A DNA stretch of 64,000 bases, taken from positions 124,001-188,000 of the forward strand of contig JAHDOV010000002.1 in the NCBI GenBank assembly GCA_018434685.1, in the 5' to 3' direction. How positions within the stretch are numbered: the stretch's first letter is position 1; each line of letters opens with the position of its first letter. The position numbers were made by a program, and so were the translations under genes. Below the pieces are notes generated by a model, which had not been told where the DNA came from, did not search any database, and saw only the letters and a list, made by a program, of their open reading frames with translations. The DNA comes from Deltaproteobacteria bacterium. GTDB taxonomy: Bacteria; Desulfobacterota; Desulfomonilia; UBA1062. Shown piece after piece: positions 16,483-23,667 of the stretch.

Positions 16483-17295
16483 CTAGCGCCAGTAGCGCGG
16501 GGTAAGGTATTCGGGATCGAGGGTTTCCACGCAGCGGATCGCACAGCGGATGGCATCGTGTTCCGCCTGCCCCTTGAGATCGCTCCTGATCTCCTCGGAC
16601 GAGCTGCGCTCGGCGATCACGGCCAGCACGCTCGCAGCGGCAAAACCGTAGACGCCTGCCATCTTGAAGAGTGTGCCGGTTTCCATCTCGTAGCTCAGGA
16701 TGTTCAGTCTCCGGTATTCCTCGGTGATGCCCCGGAGATGACCGAGCAGGTGTTTGTTTGCCGAGGTTGCGGTCCGTTCCTGTCCCTCGTAGAACGTATC
16801 GACCGATGCGGTGATGCCCAGGTGCCAGTCCACCCCGAGTTCTCGCGCTGCCTCCACGAGCCCGGCGGTGAGGAACACACTGGCGGCGGCGGGATACTCG
16901 GGCGGCGCGATATCACTGCCCGCACCCTGCCTGCACAGGGCAGCACTGGCTATGATGACGCTGCCCGCCCTGACATCGTCCTGGATCGACCCGGTGGTGC
17001 CGATCCTGATCACCTGCCGTATCCCCGCGGAGAAGAGCTCGTTGATTACGATGCTCATCGACGGTGCGCCCATGCCGCTCGTGGCGCATACGAGACGCTT
17101 CCCGTCTGCAAGGGACACGAGGTAGCTGCTGAGCGCCCGGTTATCGGAAAGCTGTTTCACCAGGTGCAGCCCAGGGGTGCTGCACGCCACCTTCTCTGTC
17201 CTGGCGGGGTCTCCGCAGACGAGCGCCATGCTCGGCGGGTCTGCACCGAGATCCTCCCTGCCGAACCCTATGTGGTATCCTGTCCGCTCGCTCAT
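16483..17295 (-). CDS. udp: Uridine phosphorylase (nucleoside phosphorylase family)
   Basis: A 270-residue nucleoside phosphorylase, most like uridine phosphorylase, which splits uridine and phosphate into uracil and ribose-1-phosphate. Phosphate-site motifs are seen as VCGDPARTEKVA near residue 27 and RIGTTGSIQDDV near residue 96. The nucleoside site includes SYEMETGTLFKMAGVYG near residue 200. GGAG about 8 bases before the ATG supports the start. It is co-directional with the PHP-kinase gene, 40 bases downstream of that gene's stop. Confidence 0.88.
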   Translation of the reverse strand: MSERTGYHIGFGREDLGADPPSMALVCGDPARTEKVACSTPGLHLVKQLSDNRALSSYLVSLADGKRLVCATSGMGAPSMSIVINELFSAGIRQVIRIGTTGSIQDDVRAGSVIIASAALCRQGAGSDIAPPEYPAAASVFLTAGLVEAARELGVDWHLGITASVDTFYEGQERTATSANKHLLGHLRGITEEYRRLNILSYEMETGTLFKMAGVYGFAAASVLAVIAERSSSEEIRSDLKGQAEHDAIRCAIRCVETLDPEYLTPRYWR

Positions 17296-17335: not shown

Positions 17336-18847
17336 TCAGGTATCGCCCTCGAGCATGGCCAGCGAGAGCATCATGACCTGGCGCATATCCTCGCTCTCGC
17401 CCTTGCCCACCTTGATAAGGAAAGCCCCGATGCTCAGGTTCGCCCTGATCACGAACATGTTCACGGCCCTGCGGAACTCCATCGTCTCCTCCTGGGAATA
17501 TTCCTCGTCGTACGAGCGCATGAAGTCGGCCGGGGTGTGCCGCTCGATGATATGGGGGTAGTCACGGAACTGGTTCTTGAACTGGGCGATGAAATACCCC
17601 ACGTCGAAGGCCCGGTGAAAGAGCATGGCGCTGCCGAAGTCGATAACCGAGATAAAGAGCGTAGCAGGGTCGTGCATCCGGTCCTGGCCGATGATGATGT
17701 TTTTCGGGTGATAGTCGCCGTGGACGAGCACAAAGGTGTCTGACTTTGTTGACCAGAGTTCCTCCTCGAACGCCTCCACGGCCTCGATGAGCCGCTGTGC
17801 ATCGTCACTGTAGGGGCTGTTCGTGGAGGAGAAGGCATCGAGGTATGACCTGAACCTCCGCAGTTCCCGCCTGGGCACGCCGGCAATCCGACCGGGATGA
17901 ATCCTCCGCCGGTGGAGCTGAGCCAGCCACTTCGCTGCCAGCCGGAAATAGAGCTCTCCCATGGAGGGGCTCACCTGGATCATGAGATCGAAGAGATTCC
18001 TGCCCCGCTGCCCCTCTTCGATAATCACCTGTTCTTGTTCGTTGATCTCGAGCGTACGAGGCACCCTGAAGGCCCCGTCGGAAAATCCGTGGTCGTAGAC
18101 CTGCTGCGCTATGCGTGAAGAACCGGCGATGGCAGCCCACTTCCCGGGTTTCTCCGCGGTCTTGAGGATAATCCTGCTCCTGGACTCGTCATCTCCCTTT
18201 GTCCCGAAGATGATCTCCCGGACTTCCATGTTGCTGCCGGCCCTGGGTATCTCCTTGTAAAACGGCCGGCACCGCCCGGATCTCACCTCCAGGACCACCT
18301 CATCCATGGTCTGTACCGGGTGATCGAACTGGGTCGGCAGGATCGCGGCCGTATCCGGTGCATGGGTGTCACTGCCGCTGATGGCGACGAACTTGTGCTG
18401 GTGCCACAGGGAAAGCCCGTGCAGGTTTTCGAGCTGGGTGTGGTTGCTGCTGAAGATCTCGATGGCATCAAGGCTGGGGTCGAGGAGCCTGTCCTTTGAC
18501 GGAATCTTCCCGTTCCTCAACGGGTGGGCCCAGACGAGCGCTGCATCGGGATACCTGCTGCGCAGCTGCTGAAGGCCCATCTTCTCCCCGATTGTCCGGC
18601 TGGCGCCGTAGACGAGCACGTGCCCATGGTCGGTATCCACCTCCTGGGCGGCCAGGATCGTGAAATACCCTGCCACCTCGGCCTGCGCCCTGAGCTCCGC
18701 GAGCTCGTCTGCGCTCCACAGGTAGTGGTGCTCGGTCAGGATAATCCCCTGGAGCCCCTTCCGGTGTGCCTGCCTGACGAGCACGACCGGGTCGATCCGG
18801 CTGCAGGACGAGTGCCTCGCCGTATGTGCGTGCATCTCCATGAGCAT
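17336..18847 (-). CDS. PHP-domain / aminoglycoside-phosphotransferase-like fusion protein
   Basis: A 503-residue two-domain protein. Residues 1-215 form a PHP metal-dependent phosphoesterase domain: EMHAHTARHS at the N-terminus, GIILTEHHYL, VWAHPL and ISGSDTHAPD provide the His and Asp metal ligands. Residues 230-500 resemble an APH/choline-kinase domain, with the kinase-like VHGDYHPKNIII (catalytic Asp) and VIDFGSA (metal-binding Asp of DFG type). Such a fusion of phosphatase-like and kinase-like halves is unusual. Substrate is unknown. An in-frame ATG two codons later is an alternative start; GGAG and AGGGG are upstream. Confidence 0.8.
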   Translation of the reverse strand: MLMEMHAHTARHSSCSRIDPVVLVRQAHRKGLQGIILTEHHYLWSADELAELRAQAEVAGYFTILAAQEVDTDHGHVLVYGASRTIGEKMGLQQLRSRYPDAALVWAHPLRNGKIPSKDRLLDPSLDAIEIFSSNHTQLENLHGLSLWHQHKFVAISGSDTHAPDTAAILPTQFDHPVQTMDEVVLEVRSGRCRPFYKEIPRAGSNMEVREIIFGTKGDDESRSRIILKTAEKPGKWAAIAGSSRIAQQVYDHGFSDGAFRVPRTLEINEQEQVIIEEGQRGRNLFDLMIQVSPSMGELYFRLAAKWLAQLHRRRIHPGRIAGVPRRELRRFRSYLDAFSSTNSPYSDDAQRLIEAVEAFEEELWSTKSDTFVLVHGDYHPKNIIIGQDRMHDPATLFISVIDFGSAMLFHRAFDVGYFIAQFKNQFRDYPHIIERHTPADFMRSYDEEYSQEETMEFRRAVNMFVIRANLSIGAFLIKVGKGESEDMRQVMMLSLAMLEGDT

Positions 18848-18935: not shown

Positions 18936-20861
18936 TCAGTACATCTGCTCGATAGCATCCTGGTAATCCTCGAGGATCACCTTCTTCTTGGTCTTCTGGG
19001 TCGGCGTGAGCTGGCCGTTATTCTCGGTAAAGCGCTGCCTCAAAACAGTGTACTTGCGGATCTGTTCGAAGTCCTCGAGCTGGGCGTTTGCCGCCTCGAC
19101 GTCGCGGGCAATGAGCTCCTGCAGCAGGGGCTGCGCTATGAAGTCATCCCCCACGCCGGTGCAGATCTTCATGCCGCCGATATCCTCGTAGACGAGGCGG
19201 TCTTTGGCAAACGGGATCTGCTCCTTGCCGAACAGCGCGAGGAAATAATTGAAGTTCGGAACAAGAAGCGCTGAGATGTAATTCCGCTCGTCGCCGACAA
19301 AGAAGGCCTGTTCCACCACGGTGCTCAGGGAAAAGAGATTCTCCAGCTTTGCAGGGGCGATATTCTTGCCAACTGCCGTGCAGATGATGGCCTTCTTCCT
19401 GTCAACGATCTTGTAGTATCCGTATCTGTCAACCTGCACCACGTCGCCGGTCTTGAACCAGCCGTCGGGCGTGAACGAATCGCTGGTGTCCTCGGGCATG
19501 TTGAGATATTCGCTGAAGATACCGGCGCCCGATATCTCGAGCTCGCCGTCCGGGGCGATCCGTGCACGCGACCTGTTGGCCTCCATCCCCATATAGCCGG
19601 GCTTACACGCCATGATGGGGTTGAGGATACAGGCGCTCCCGCTCTCCGTGGAACCGTACCCCTCCACCACGGCGAGCCCCAGGGTATAGTAGAACTTCAG
19701 GAGGTCCGGGGCGATCCCGGCGCTGGCTGAAAACGCATAGCGGAAACGGCTGCCGAACAGGCTCCTGACCTTCGCAAAGAGCTTGTCCGCAAGCCTGTAC
19801 TGGATCTTGAGGTACAGGGGCAGCCTCGCTTCCAGATCATACCCGTATGACATGTTGTACGTGTCGCCGTTGTCCCTGCGATATTCCAGGGCCTTCCTGC
19901 CCACGGACAGGGCCAGGTCGAAAAGCTTCTTCTTCAGCGGGGTCGCGGACATCTTTTCCTGGAAGGTGATGAAGATCTTCTCGTAGAGCCTCGGCACACA
20001 GTTGATCCAGGTGGGGTTGTACCTCTGCATGTCTTCCAGCAGCGTACCGGGCTTGTCTGCATAGGCGATGCACGACCCCTGGAACAGGGCCAGCATCTGG
20101 CAGGAGCCGCGCTCGAAGATGTGGGACAGCGGGAGGTAGCACAGGGTGACGTCGTCTTCGGTTATGGCCATGCCGTTGTTTGCGAAGAACTCCTTCACGC
20201 CTTCCAGACGCGAGGCCACACACCAGTGGGTGAGGATGACCCCCTTGCCCTTGCCCGTTGTACCGGAGGTGTAGAGGATGGTAAGCCGGTCGTCCAGGGT
20301 GATGACCTGCCAGCGGGCCTCATAGTCCCCGTAGTGATCCCGCTTCCAGGTCCTGCCCGCCTCCATGAGCTCGGACAACCCGAGGGTGCGCTCACCGTCG
20401 CCCTTGTAGGCGAGATCCAGGACAATGACCTTCTCCAGCCTCGGCAGCTTGTCGAAACCGTCAAGCACCCTCGAGAGGTTGTGCTCACCGTCGACAAACA
20501 GGTAGCGGCATCCCGAGTCGTTGAGAATGTAGGAGACCTCCCCGAACGACAGCGTCGGGTAGATGGTCACGATCACCCCCGCGCAGTGGGCGATGGCAAG
20601 GTCTGCCTGGGTCCAGTAGGGGCTGCTGCGGGACATGATCCCTGCCATCTCCTGCCGTTCGAACCCGAGGCTCAACAGGCCGCAGGCAATGTCCTCCATG
20701 CGTGCACGCAGCTGGGCATAGGTGAAGATGCCACCACTGTCCCCGTGATACAGACCTGGGTTGAACTGCTGGGCCGGATGCGCAGGAAACCGTTCACAGG
20801 TCGCCTGGAAGTACCTGCAGACACTCTGCAGATCGTAGTCTTCTCGATGCTGTTCTCTCAT
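18936..20861 (-). CDS. Long-chain fatty-acid-CoA ligase (AMP-forming)
   Basis: A 641-residue member of the ANL superfamily, of the FadD15/ACSL-like group, activating fatty acids with ATP to acyl-AMP and then acyl-CoA at the membrane face. The AMP-binding P-loop is LYTSGTTGKGKGVILTH near residue 208; VEGYGSTESG and the hinge GWFKTGDVVQVDRYGYYKIVDRKK are present, followed by a C-terminal lysine region (VGKNIAPAKLEN). GGAGG 7 bases before the ATG fixes the start. It begins a run of co-directional genes towards the PHP fusion. Confidence 0.92.
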   Translation of the reverse strand: MREQHREDYDLQSVCRYFQATCERFPAHPAQQFNPGLYHGDSGGIFTYAQLRARMEDIACGLLSLGFERQEMAGIMSRSSPYWTQADLAIAHCAGVIVTIYPTLSFGEVSYILNDSGCRYLFVDGEHNLSRVLDGFDKLPRLEKVIVLDLAYKGDGERTLGLSELMEAGRTWKRDHYGDYEARWQVITLDDRLTILYTSGTTGKGKGVILTHWCVASRLEGVKEFFANNGMAITEDDVTLCYLPLSHIFERGSCQMLALFQGSCIAYADKPGTLLEDMQRYNPTWINCVPRLYEKIFITFQEKMSATPLKKKLFDLALSVGRKALEYRRDNGDTYNMSYGYDLEARLPLYLKIQYRLADKLFAKVRSLFGSRFRYAFSASAGIAPDLLKFYYTLGLAVVEGYGSTESGSACILNPIMACKPGYMGMEANRSRARIAPDGELEISGAGIFSEYLNMPEDTSDSFTPDGWFKTGDVVQVDRYGYYKIVDRKKAIICTAVGKNIAPAKLENLFSLSTVVEQAFFVGDERNYISALLVPNFNYFLALFGKEQIPFAKDRLVYEDIGGMKICTGVGDDFIAQPLLQELIARDVEAANAQLEDFEQIRKYTVLRQRFTENNGQLTPTQKTKKKVILEDYQDAIEQMY

Positions 20862-20996: not shown

Positions 20997-21653
20997 TCAG
21001 TGCTCCATGAAGGCCAGGACCTTCTCTGCAAGGAGCCGTTTCTTCACCGGCGGCGGGTAGAGCGGGGATATTCTCCCGGTGTTCAGGTCAAAGGTGTTGA
21101 CATGATCCCTGCCGGTGAGCTTCTGGCCGTACACGCTCAGCTGTATGGCGGCATTGTCGCCCGGATTGCCGGTCCGGTGTATGCCTGCATCCAGGGGAAG
21201 CACGGAGAACGTCCCGCCTGGCTGAATGATTTTCCTTGAGCTCTCGACGAGGCGGATATGATCCTGCACCATCCCCTCATCCTCCCTCCGGTAATTGATG
21301 ACCTCCAGGGTTCCCAGGGCAGGGCCTATGACCCCCCATGAGTTATGGTCGTGGACCGGATCGTACTCGCCCCGGTCCCAGAGATACATCCTGAGGGAAA
21401 ACTGCCGGCCCGGGTCCCGGTAGAGGATGATCTCGCTGTCGAACATGGTGGCATAGTAGATATCCGGGTAGTCGGCGCAGGCAGTTATATTGCGCAGGAT
21501 GCCCCTGAGCAGCGCCAGATCCGACAGGATTCCCGGGAAGACCCGCTCCATGTGTGCAATGCGCGCTGACTGGTCCGGGAGCCGCTCCAGCTCCTTCGAC
21601 CACGCGGCGCACCGGGAGACAAGCTCTGCGGGAATGTGCAGGGACTCTGTCAT
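20997..21653 (-). CDS. Cupin-fold cysteine-dioxygenase-like protein
   Basis: A 218-residue double-stranded beta-helix protein related to cysteine dioxygenase. The metal-site motif is VHDHNSWGVIGPALGTLEVINY near residue 115, and the second His is in LDAGIHRTGN near residue 165. The reading frame is open a further 91 codons into the oxidoreductase gene, but GGAGG about 7 bases before the ATG at 21653 sets the start. It follows the molybdopterin oxidoreductase by 14 bases in one operon. The substrate is unknown; it may be a thiol or another small acid. Confidence 0.8.
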   Translation of the reverse strand: MTESLHIPAELVSRCAAWSKELERLPDQSARIAHMERVFPGILSDLALLRGILRNITACADYPDIYYATMFDSEIILYRDPGRQFSLRMYLWDRGEYDPVHDHNSWGVIGPALGTLEVINYRREDEGMVQDHIRLVESSRKIIQPGGTFSVLPLDAGIHRTGNPGDNAAIQLSVYGQKLTGRDHVNTFDLNTGRISPLYPPPVKKRLLAEKVLAFMEH

Positions 21654-21667
21654 GGGCTCCCTCCTGT

Positions 21668-23608
21668 TTATGGCACCTCGTTTTGAAGCGTGACATATTG
21701 ATCGTAATACGCCGAGCCGCTTCCCATGTCGGTCAGGACCGCAGCGATAAGCCGGTTGGCCCCGCCCCCGAGCTTCATCCAGTCTCCCCGGCGGTAGACC
21801 ACCGTGTTTGCATGCAGGCCCGGTACCGTCTCCACCCTCACACGGAGACGCCCGAGAGGAGAAACCAGGGAGACCTCCTTCGTGACGTCGAGTCCCGAGA
21901 GCACCGGGCAGTCCGGGGACACCCACACCTTCGGCGGCTGCACCTGATCCGCAGGGAGCATCTGGGAATGGAGGGCCTCTCTCCTCACCAGGGTCAGGAG
22001 CCTCAGAGGAAATCCCTCAGGAGGAGCAGGCTCTTTGTGGAGCTTGGAGGGGAACGAGTATTTCCCGTCGGCATGGTCGAAGCGCATCCCCTCGTAGGCA
22101 ATCGCTCCCCGGTCTGCCCTGACGAAACCCCTTTCTTGGAGCTCTTCCAGCGAGATGTCGAGATAATCGGAGGCCAGCGACATCTTCATGCATTGTGTCG
22201 GTTCCGGCAGCTCGATCTTAGGGTCCAGGCGTCTGCCCAGGGCCGAGAGGATCCAGTGATCGCTGCGCGCCGCTCCCGGGGCCTTGTGCACAGCCCGTGC
22301 ATACTGGACATAGTCATGGAGGTAGGAGGCCACGATATCATCCGTTTCCAGGATGAGCGAAGGGGGGAGAACGAGATCGGCCCGTTGCGCCGTGTCGGTC
22401 ATGAATGCGTCCACCACCACCTTGAACTCGATGGAGTCGAAGGCGCGTACCGCGAGCTTAGAATCGGGCACCTGGTTGATGAGGTTTGCCCCTTCGACCC
22501 AGATCATCCGTATGGGAGGGTCTGCGGCATCCAGGATATCCCGGGCGATCAGGGGCATCCGGAGGAACCTTGGCCGGCCCCCGGTTCCCGGGTTCATCCA
22601 CCCCAGGTTGAGATTCCTCAGCGAATTGAGGTGATAATACGTCCCTGCACCTCCGCGCCCGATGTTGCCCGAGACCATGGCAAGCGCATTGATAAGGCGG
22701 ACATTTTCTCCGCCGAAGCTGTACCGCTGGAGACCGGCACCGATGATGCTCGCAACCGGCTGCTTCTGCGAATAGACCTCATAGAGCACCTCGAGGTCGC
22801 CCGGGGCTACCTCGCACGCATCCAGGAGCTCGTCAGCGGGGTGGCTCAGGATCATCGCGCTGAAGGCATCCCAGTTCCGGCTATGCCGGACAACGTCTCC
22901 ACCCACCCTGGAGCGCTCGATGAAGAGGCGGACGAGGGCGGCAGCGAGAAACCTGTCCGTGCCCGGCCGGATCTGCACGAGCCGGTCGCTAAAGGCCCGG
23001 TTTCCGTCGCCCCCCGGTGATACGGTGACGACCCGCGAGCCGTTCTTTCTCGCCTGATTCACGAAATAGGCCGTGTGCACGGAACTCCGCGAAAGGTCCT
23101 TTCCCCAGTTGACCACGGCCCGCGCATTGAGAAGGTCGGCAATGTCGTTCTGATCCCTGCTGCCGAAGTCCCGCATGCACGCGCCGTAGCCTGCCGAGTC
23201 GCACAGAGATCCCCTCACGAGACTTGCCCCGAGCCTGCTGAAGAACAGGTTGCCCGCCTGTTTCACGGCGCCCTTGGCACCCTCGCCGTGAAAATACAGG
23301 ATCGAAGACGGCTCATCCCGGTAGTGCCGGATGCGCCCGGCGCAGAGATCCAGCGCACGCTCCCAGTCGATGGCCTCCCAGGTATCCCCAACCCTCTCGA
23401 GGGGTTCGGTGATCCTCTCCGGGCTGTCCAGCCGCTCCAGGCACCTGTTGATCTTGGAACAGACGAATCCCCTGGTTACGGGATGATCGGGATTGCCCCT
23501 GGCGCGCAGCTTTCCTTTTGAATCCTGCGTAATGACGAGCGAGCACGCATCCGGACAGTCCAGGGTGCATGCAGTGATAGGATCATCTTGTACCATACGG
23601 GTATACAT
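21668..23608 (-). CDS. Molybdopterin-dependent oxidoreductase with [4Fe-4S] cluster
   Basis: A 646-residue member of the DMSO-reductase superfamily. The N-terminal cluster motif is CTLDCPDACSL with a later GFVCSKI cysteine. The cofactor-binding core follows (ILYFHGEGAKGA, VNWGKDLSRSS, RVVTVSPGG), and a C-terminal Molydop-binding domain contains VSPDCPVLSGL. GSLCDSAGYG near residue 132 may supply the Mo or W ligand cysteine. No Tat signal is visible, so it is probably cytoplasmic. The start is ambiguous (ATG at 23608 or 23596); the former has weak GAAG upstream. It is divergent from a LysR regulator and followed by the cupin gene. Confidence 0.87.
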   Translation of the reverse strand: MYTRMVQDDPITACTLDCPDACSLVITQDSKGKLRARGNPDHPVTRGFVCSKINRCLERLDSPERITEPLERVGDTWEAIDWERALDLCAGRIRHYRDEPSSILYFHGEGAKGAVKQAGNLFFSRLGASLVRGSLCDSAGYGACMRDFGSRDQNDIADLLNARAVVNWGKDLSRSSVHTAYFVNQARKNGSRVVTVSPGGDGNRAFSDRLVQIRPGTDRFLAAALVRLFIERSRVGGDVVRHSRNWDAFSAMILSHPADELLDACEVAPGDLEVLYEVYSQKQPVASIIGAGLQRYSFGGENVRLINALAMVSGNIGRGGAGTYYHLNSLRNLNLGWMNPGTGGRPRFLRMPLIARDILDAADPPIRMIWVEGANLINQVPDSKLAVRAFDSIEFKVVVDAFMTDTAQRADLVLPPSLILETDDIVASYLHDYVQYARAVHKAPGAARSDHWILSALGRRLDPKIELPEPTQCMKMSLASDYLDISLEELQERGFVRADRGAIAYEGMRFDHADGKYSFPSKLHKEPAPPEGFPLRLLTLVRREALHSQMLPADQVQPPKVWVSPDCPVLSGLDVTKEVSLVSPLGRLRVRVETVPGLHANTVVYRRGDWMKLGGGANRLIAAVLTDMGSGSAYYDQYVTLQNEVP

Positions 23609-23667
23609 TCTTCATAATAATATACCCGGCACCAGAATATTTCAAGAATGGTACGCGGTTATGTTTA

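Follow-up and report, generated by a model that had tools for sequence, protein, structure and literature searches.

A gene joining a PHP half to an APH-type kinase half

The window, by which we mean the whole 64,000-nucleotide stretch of deltaproteobacterial DNA analysed here, carries on its minus strand an open reading frame of 503 residues that begins with ATG and whose coordinates, 17336–18847, are exact with the stop codon counted in. The encoded protein consists of an N-terminal PHP half (about residues 1–196) and a C-terminal APH-type kinase half (about residues 197–503). The gene, its parts and its immediate neighbours, with the evidence for each, are:

17336..18847, minus strand: PHP–APH fusion gene (ORF, Pfam, NCBIfam, 26 full-length homologs, AlphaFold2 model)
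18260..18847, minus strand: PHP half, residues 1–196 (residue counts in 40 fusions; fold matches 2anu, 7rty, 3e38)
18200..18271, minus strand: linkerless junction and start of the kinase N-lobe, residues 193–216 (model strands; column counts)
17339..18259, minus strand: APH-type kinase half, residues 197–503 (PF01636, 54.1 bits; residue counts in 40 fusions; fold matches)
18936..20861, minus strand: upstream AMP-binding acyl-CoA synthetase-like gene (PF00501, E=3.5e-60)
16483..17295, minus strand: downstream nucleoside (uridine-type) phosphorylase gene (PF01048, E=7e-27)

Searching Pfam with the window protein, we found a match to APH (PF01636) over residues 221–427 (E=2.4e-14, 54.1 bits, cut-off 23.2) and one to PHP (PF02811) over residues 5–73 that lies under its cut-off (E=7.5e-4, 20.3 bits, cut-off 26.4). 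The NCBIfam model CehA/McbA (NF038032) also matches the PHP half below its cut-off (E=3.7e-11, 43 bits against 80). Together with 26 homologs, the window protein forms an alignment of 27 members, in which Pfam at E<=0.01 finds APH in 27/27, PHP_C in 22/27 and PHP in 21/27; CehA/McbA is the NCBIfam model matched by the most members (27/27 at E<=0.001, best E 4.3e-17). Membership of the N-terminal half in the PHP superfamily is decided by fold and residues, as described below.

The initial annotation had read this gene as a PHP–APH fusion, and the reading is upheld by the 503-residue frame and its recurrence in 26 further full-length proteins. Since these homologs share 44–55% identity with it, the fusion is neither a chance product, a frame error nor a chimeric contig, and an artefact of assembly or frame is ruled out. 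We also rejected an antibiotic resistance enzyme, the APH(3') model NF033068 scoring 17 bits against a cut-off of 205; the label of the kinase half brings a misleading association with aminoglycoside resistance. A phage or defence gene was rejected because neither PHROGs nor PADLOC gave a family at E<=0.01, and a plasmid gene with matches to two plasmid records only, by the PHP half alone and at 25–26% identity.

The fusion had not been recognised in the initial annotation; likewise, we found no description of it in the open-licence literature, judged from titles and abstract openings. In the portions of PMC12419801 that we consulted, PHP and kinase terms stand in separate passages, on other gene neighbourhoods. 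The architecture, built from two known superfamilies, therefore seems undescribed.

Distribution of the fusion

Among the first 41 genomes, the window's own and 40 relatives, 24 contain a match, which is full-length in only five: the window's genome and four from a single genus of the same family. In the other 19 the match is limited to the PHP half or part of it. A contig scan with the alignment of those five full-length fusions returned 29 loci, and at 26 of them the fusion is full-length, with 44–55% identity. The records of these 26 homologs name Omnitrophota, Elusimicrobia, Theseobacter and Erginobacter (Auribacterota), the PVC group, Deltaproteobacteria, Geobacter/Geobacteraceae and uncultured bacterium. 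Three of the 29 loci lack the full fusion. L039 (8001-8606) encodes a PHP protein only, of 202 residues and 48% identity, and is followed by a DUF362 gene. L040 (4818-5123) is missing the middle of the gene, its 101-residue remnant running from the PHP start straight into the apparent kinase end, and looks like an internal deletion or an assembly collapse. L041 is a distant PHP protein (24% identity in the PHP half). No kinase-half match was found at E<=1e-8 in the genomes of L039 and L040.

Because the patterns of the contig scan sit in the PHP half, we took the kinase half by itself as the query against whole genomes. At E<=1e-10 it matched 12 of the 297 genomes sampled from the window's phylum, 8 of 237 of the Omnitrophota (the phylum of L016) and 8 of 119 of the Elusimicrobia (that of L028). 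All 26 loci fetched from these searches open with the PHP motif, in frame with the kinase half; 13 are new, and 13 are the window or earlier loci again. Two genomes matched by the kinase half were left out of the fusion count. In G154 (C69:26506-27383) the match is divided between two overlapping frames, with a 317-residue ORF of the fusion's cluster (L082), and the split is a frameshift either in the genome or in the assembly; in G178, weaker matches lie inside an 862-residue frame. We saw no clear stand-alone kinase half in the sampled genomes of the three phyla. This sparse and patchy spread would be in keeping with horizontal transfer or frequent loss of the fusion.

L039, L040 and L041 are excluded from the 27-row and 40-row counts, and the 53 remaining rows, less 13 repeats, give the 40 distinct fusions on which the residue counts and trees below are based. 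Rows from the kinase searches were fitted with insertions removed, so insertions there have no bearing on the 40-row trees and counts.

The PHP half

The metal-motif residues H6, H8, H40, E69, H108, E130, D160 and H162 are invariant in 40/40 distinct fusions, and the position of E39 of the window protein holds Glu in 30 and Asp in the other 10, so that the PHP superfamily motifs HxH, E/D-H, E, H and DxH are all present in every fusion. Cys15, beside the metal motif, is also invariant (40/40). In seven solo PHP proteins its column holds Cys in four and Asp in three, and may be that of a metal ligand. CehA/McbA-like proteins and the short solo PHP proteins (about 200 residues) resemble the fusion in the PHP core and in Cys or Asp at site 15, but are without a kinase half; eight solo proteins share 23–31% identity with the PHP half of the fusion.

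Since kinases fill the best 50 fold matches of the full-length model, the PHP half was folded and searched by itself. The prediction for residues 1–198 (pLDDT 96.7) has the PHP barrel fold, and its best ten solved structures are all PHP proteins, with Z scores of 15.0–19.1: TM0559 (2anu; Z 19.1, rmsd 2.8, 184 aligned), PsfC (7rty; Z 19.0, rmsd 2.9, 188 aligned) and BVU_3505 (3e38; Z 18.2, rmsd 3.0, 186 aligned) are followed by RNase AM (9etk, 7ug9; Z 15.1–15.6) and the nucleotidase-type protein 2yb1 (Z 15.0). Foldseek placed RNase AM 7ug9 first by E-value. In the alignments of 3e38, 9etk, 7ug9 and 2yb1, the HxH, E/D-H, E, H and DxH positions are common with the fusion. The solved PHP proteins nonetheless share only 16–22% identity with its PHP half and have no kinase half, and RNase AM and 2yb1 align in two pieces, hence hold a stretch that is missing from the fusion. 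By sequence, a profile of the fused PHP halves alone matched no solved structure at E<=0.01, whereas profiles with the solo PHP proteins added did match solved structures; the match to PsfC is good over the C-terminal motifs and weak over the N-terminal stretch.

PsfC belongs to the Pseudomonas fosfomycin pathway and shares the fold over 188 residues, but a passage of a preprint calls it a dinuclear non-heme iron enzyme acting on phosphonate (PMC12871164). With such an enzyme among the closest solved folds, the PHP fold by itself is no proof of phosphate removal. The PHP half might accordingly be an iron-dependent oxidase or another PsfC-like metal enzyme, whose product the kinase modifies. 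The Z score of 7rty, level with the best solved fold, the invariant Cys15 and the iron and redox genes among some neighbours all speak for this; however, 2anu and 3e38 tie or nearly tie with 7rty, RNase AM and nucleotidase-type folds match too, and Cys15 is not special to the fusion, being shared with four of the seven solo proteins. The redox neighbours, moreover, are confined to single lineages, and the lineages hosting the fusion are, we assume, mostly anaerobic. We regard a PsfC-like role as improbable.

The kinase half

The catalytic loop of the window protein reads H376-G-D378-Y-H-P-K-N383 and is followed by D403, with K229 on strand β3. The loop motif HxDxxxxN and the metal-binding Asp of the APH superfamily are present in 40/40 fusions, in which H376, G377, D378, H380, P381, N383, D403, F404 and D415 are invariant, as are G204, G215, K217, E221 and R225 of the N-lobe. 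A β3 Lys paired with an αC Glu is typical of the APH phosphotransferase superfamily. At position 229, placed by the strands of the model and not by superposed coordinates, we observed Lys in 32/40 fusions and Arg in 8/40, and no conserved αC Glu occurs among residues 237–252 across the 40 fusions. The N-lobe is thus atypical.

The best 50 fold matches of the full-length model are all APH-fold kinases, for the most part small-molecule kinases (Z 19.7–22.3, at 12–16% identity to the fusion): Rv3168 (Z 22.3, rmsd 5.1, 301 aligned), PsiK (Z 22.1, rmsd 4.7, 304 aligned), the lanthipeptide-pathway kinase LxmK (Z 21.8), methylthioribose kinases (Z 20.9–21.6) and choline kinases (about 20), neighbouring rows of this ranking being ties. 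With the superfamily of APH, choline and methylthioribose kinases the fusion shares PF01636 above cut-off and the HGDxHxxN and DF motifs; it differs in the PHP half attached without a linker and in the Arg that replaces the β3 Lys in 8/40.

On alignment, then, neither half lacks its core active-site residues, and the motifs that the initial annotation had called intact-looking are intact in these residues of both halves (40/40), though not in the β3 and αC positions of the kinase. Its contrast of opposite chemistries, phosphate removal and phosphate transfer, is weakened by the atypical N-lobe and by the description of PsfC in the cited part of PMC12871164.

The departures in the N-lobe would also suit a kinase half that is regulatory, ATP-sensing or only weakly active and that gates the PHP hydrolase. 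A greater dN/dS in the kinase half than in the PHP half in eight of nine close pairs (in one by 0.001 only) is in keeping with this. Pseudokinases, however, usually lose the catalytic Asp, the Asn and the metal Asp, and Asp378, Asn383 and Asp403 are retained in 40/40 fusions. A gating role therefore appears doubtful to us.

The junction and the whole chain

The AlphaFold2 model of the whole fusion has a mean pLDDT of 91.7 and a pTM of 0.84, high enough to suggest that the two halves sit in a fixed arrangement. In the model the final PHP strand (193–195) adjoins the first kinase strand (197–203), which leaves no linker between the halves. Invariant positions over the 40 fusions number 60, 26 in residues 1–196 and 34 in residues 197–503; P195, E199, G204 and G215 at the junction are among those unchanged in 40/40.

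The precedent of PFK-2/FBPase-2, an antagonistic kinase/phosphatase switch, raises the prospect that the kinase makes a phosphometabolite from which the PHP half removes the same phosphate, the level being set by a regulator. Both core sites are kept in 40/40 fusions, the halves are joined without a linker, and 26/26 kinase-search loci are fused, all as a switch would have it. Against this, a futile cycle requires control, and nothing that we found provides it: Pfam and NCBIfam matched no additional sensor or regulatory domain in the 503 residues. We consider such a switch unlikely.

Inheritance and selection

In the tree of PHP halves, the 40 fusions and L039 form a clade of 41 rows, apart from the eight solo PHP proteins, with support of 100/99. 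L039 nests inside this clade; a clade of the 40 fusions without it is not rejected (AU p 0.214), so that L039 may either have shed its kinase or stem from before the fusion. Quick trees, one for each half, have 13 branches apiece at SH-aLRT 95, 10 of them shared and none in conflict. Taking all 37 branches of the half-trees, 20 occur in both; with labels shuffled, the mean is 0.3 and the maximum 3. At SH-aLRT 80, 18 branches are shared (of 27 and 26) and 15 branch pairs are incompatible; in each of the six of these 15 that were listed, L063 or L064, both long rows, takes part. These observations fit one ancestral fusion inherited whole, with some exchange of halves possible among L063 and L064.

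For nine close pairs, not all independent, dN/dS is 0.02–0.20 in the PHP half and 0.08–0.38 in the kinase half, which indicates purifying selection on both.

Gene neighbourhood

In the window, the acyl-CoA synthetase-like gene ends 88 bases before the fusion start and is not conserved as a neighbour, and the phosphorylase gene lies 40 bases past the fusion stop, with uridine phosphorylase models below cut-off. The fusion is possibly co-transcribed with the genes that run from 23608 downward; a promoter-like site at 23645–23617 is at chance level (2 found, against a mean of 2.9 in shuffles).

Neighbour families vary from lineage to lineage. Beyond the fusion itself, no ORF cluster is common to more than 11 of 45 neighbourhoods, and we rejected the gene neighbours as a guide to the substrate. 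Redoxin, desulfoferrodoxin and pyruvate-ferredoxin oxidoreductase genes follow the fusion in one Omnitrophota group only (L015–L017, L019, L020, L023, L034 and L038), where they were named by Pfam in L016 and by clustering elsewhere, some being missing or past the contig end. NfeD and SPFH genes precede the fusion in three Geobacter-clade loci, with NfeD in L031, L032 and L036. Of the 26 loci L013–L038, several of which are too short to tell, seven have SPFH (Band_7) genes no more than 3.5 kb from the fusion; these seven (L013, L014, L021, L031, L032, L034 and L036) represent three or perhaps four lineages. With 1–11 SPFH genes per genome in the 30 genomes checked, well under one such case is expected by chance, but this is a rough post hoc estimate and not a test, and we treat the excess only as a lead.

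A proposed single-chain enzyme with two active sites

We hypothesize, with about even confidence, that the fusion is a single-chain enzyme with two active sites working on one small-metabolite pool. The PHP half would bind two or three metal ions and hydrolyse a bond in a small metabolite, most likely a phosphoester, and the APH-fold kinase would move phosphate from ATP onto a hydroxyl group, either of this metabolite or of what the PHP half makes from it. The conserved cores (40/40), the 26/26 fused loci, the concordant trees, the purifying selection and the pTM of 0.84 lead us to infer that each half is catalytic and that the two share a metabolite pool. The absence of a linker and the joint inheritance of the halves hint at a coupling of the two steps. 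These might take a phosphate off and re-add it, so as to shift its place or to rescue a faulty phosphate ester, or they might be the two directions of one interconversion; the order of the steps is a guess.

Several observations count against such an enzyme. With the β3 Arg in 8/40 and no conserved αC Glu, the kinase might have little activity or do no more than bind ATP; the PHP half can persist without the kinase, as in the solo L039; and the iron chemistry of PsfC, the varying neighbours and the 15 incompatible branch pairs at SH-aLRT 80 weigh on the same side.

A more specific form of the single-chain enzyme would edit phosphates: a rigid chain would take the phosphate off one position of a metabolite and put one onto another, acting on that one metabolite in sequence, and its gene would have passed between distant phyla as a self-contained unit needing no conserved neighbours. 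We think this form rather unlikely.

A linkerless kinase and metal hydrolase under selection in several phyla, including a Geobacter, makes it possible to test whether phosphate chemistry can be coupled or opposed within one bacterial polypeptide. A family that the libraries we used label only by its two halves would gain a function as well.

Additional observations

The fusion is present twice (L033 and L037) in one Geobacteraceae MAG. In the window, a 309-residue ORF at 20997-21926 on the minus strand has no Pfam match at E<=1, and its start codon is perhaps placed too far upstream, since it overlaps the next gene. The ORF caller retains the longest ORF, with the result that some neighbours are wrong-strand artefacts: a 272-residue neighbour ORF of the window overlies the phosphorylase gene, and a minus-strand ORF in L032 overlies the SPFH gene. 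In the neighbourhood comparison no fusion was called for L071, although L051, at the same place, is a fusion.
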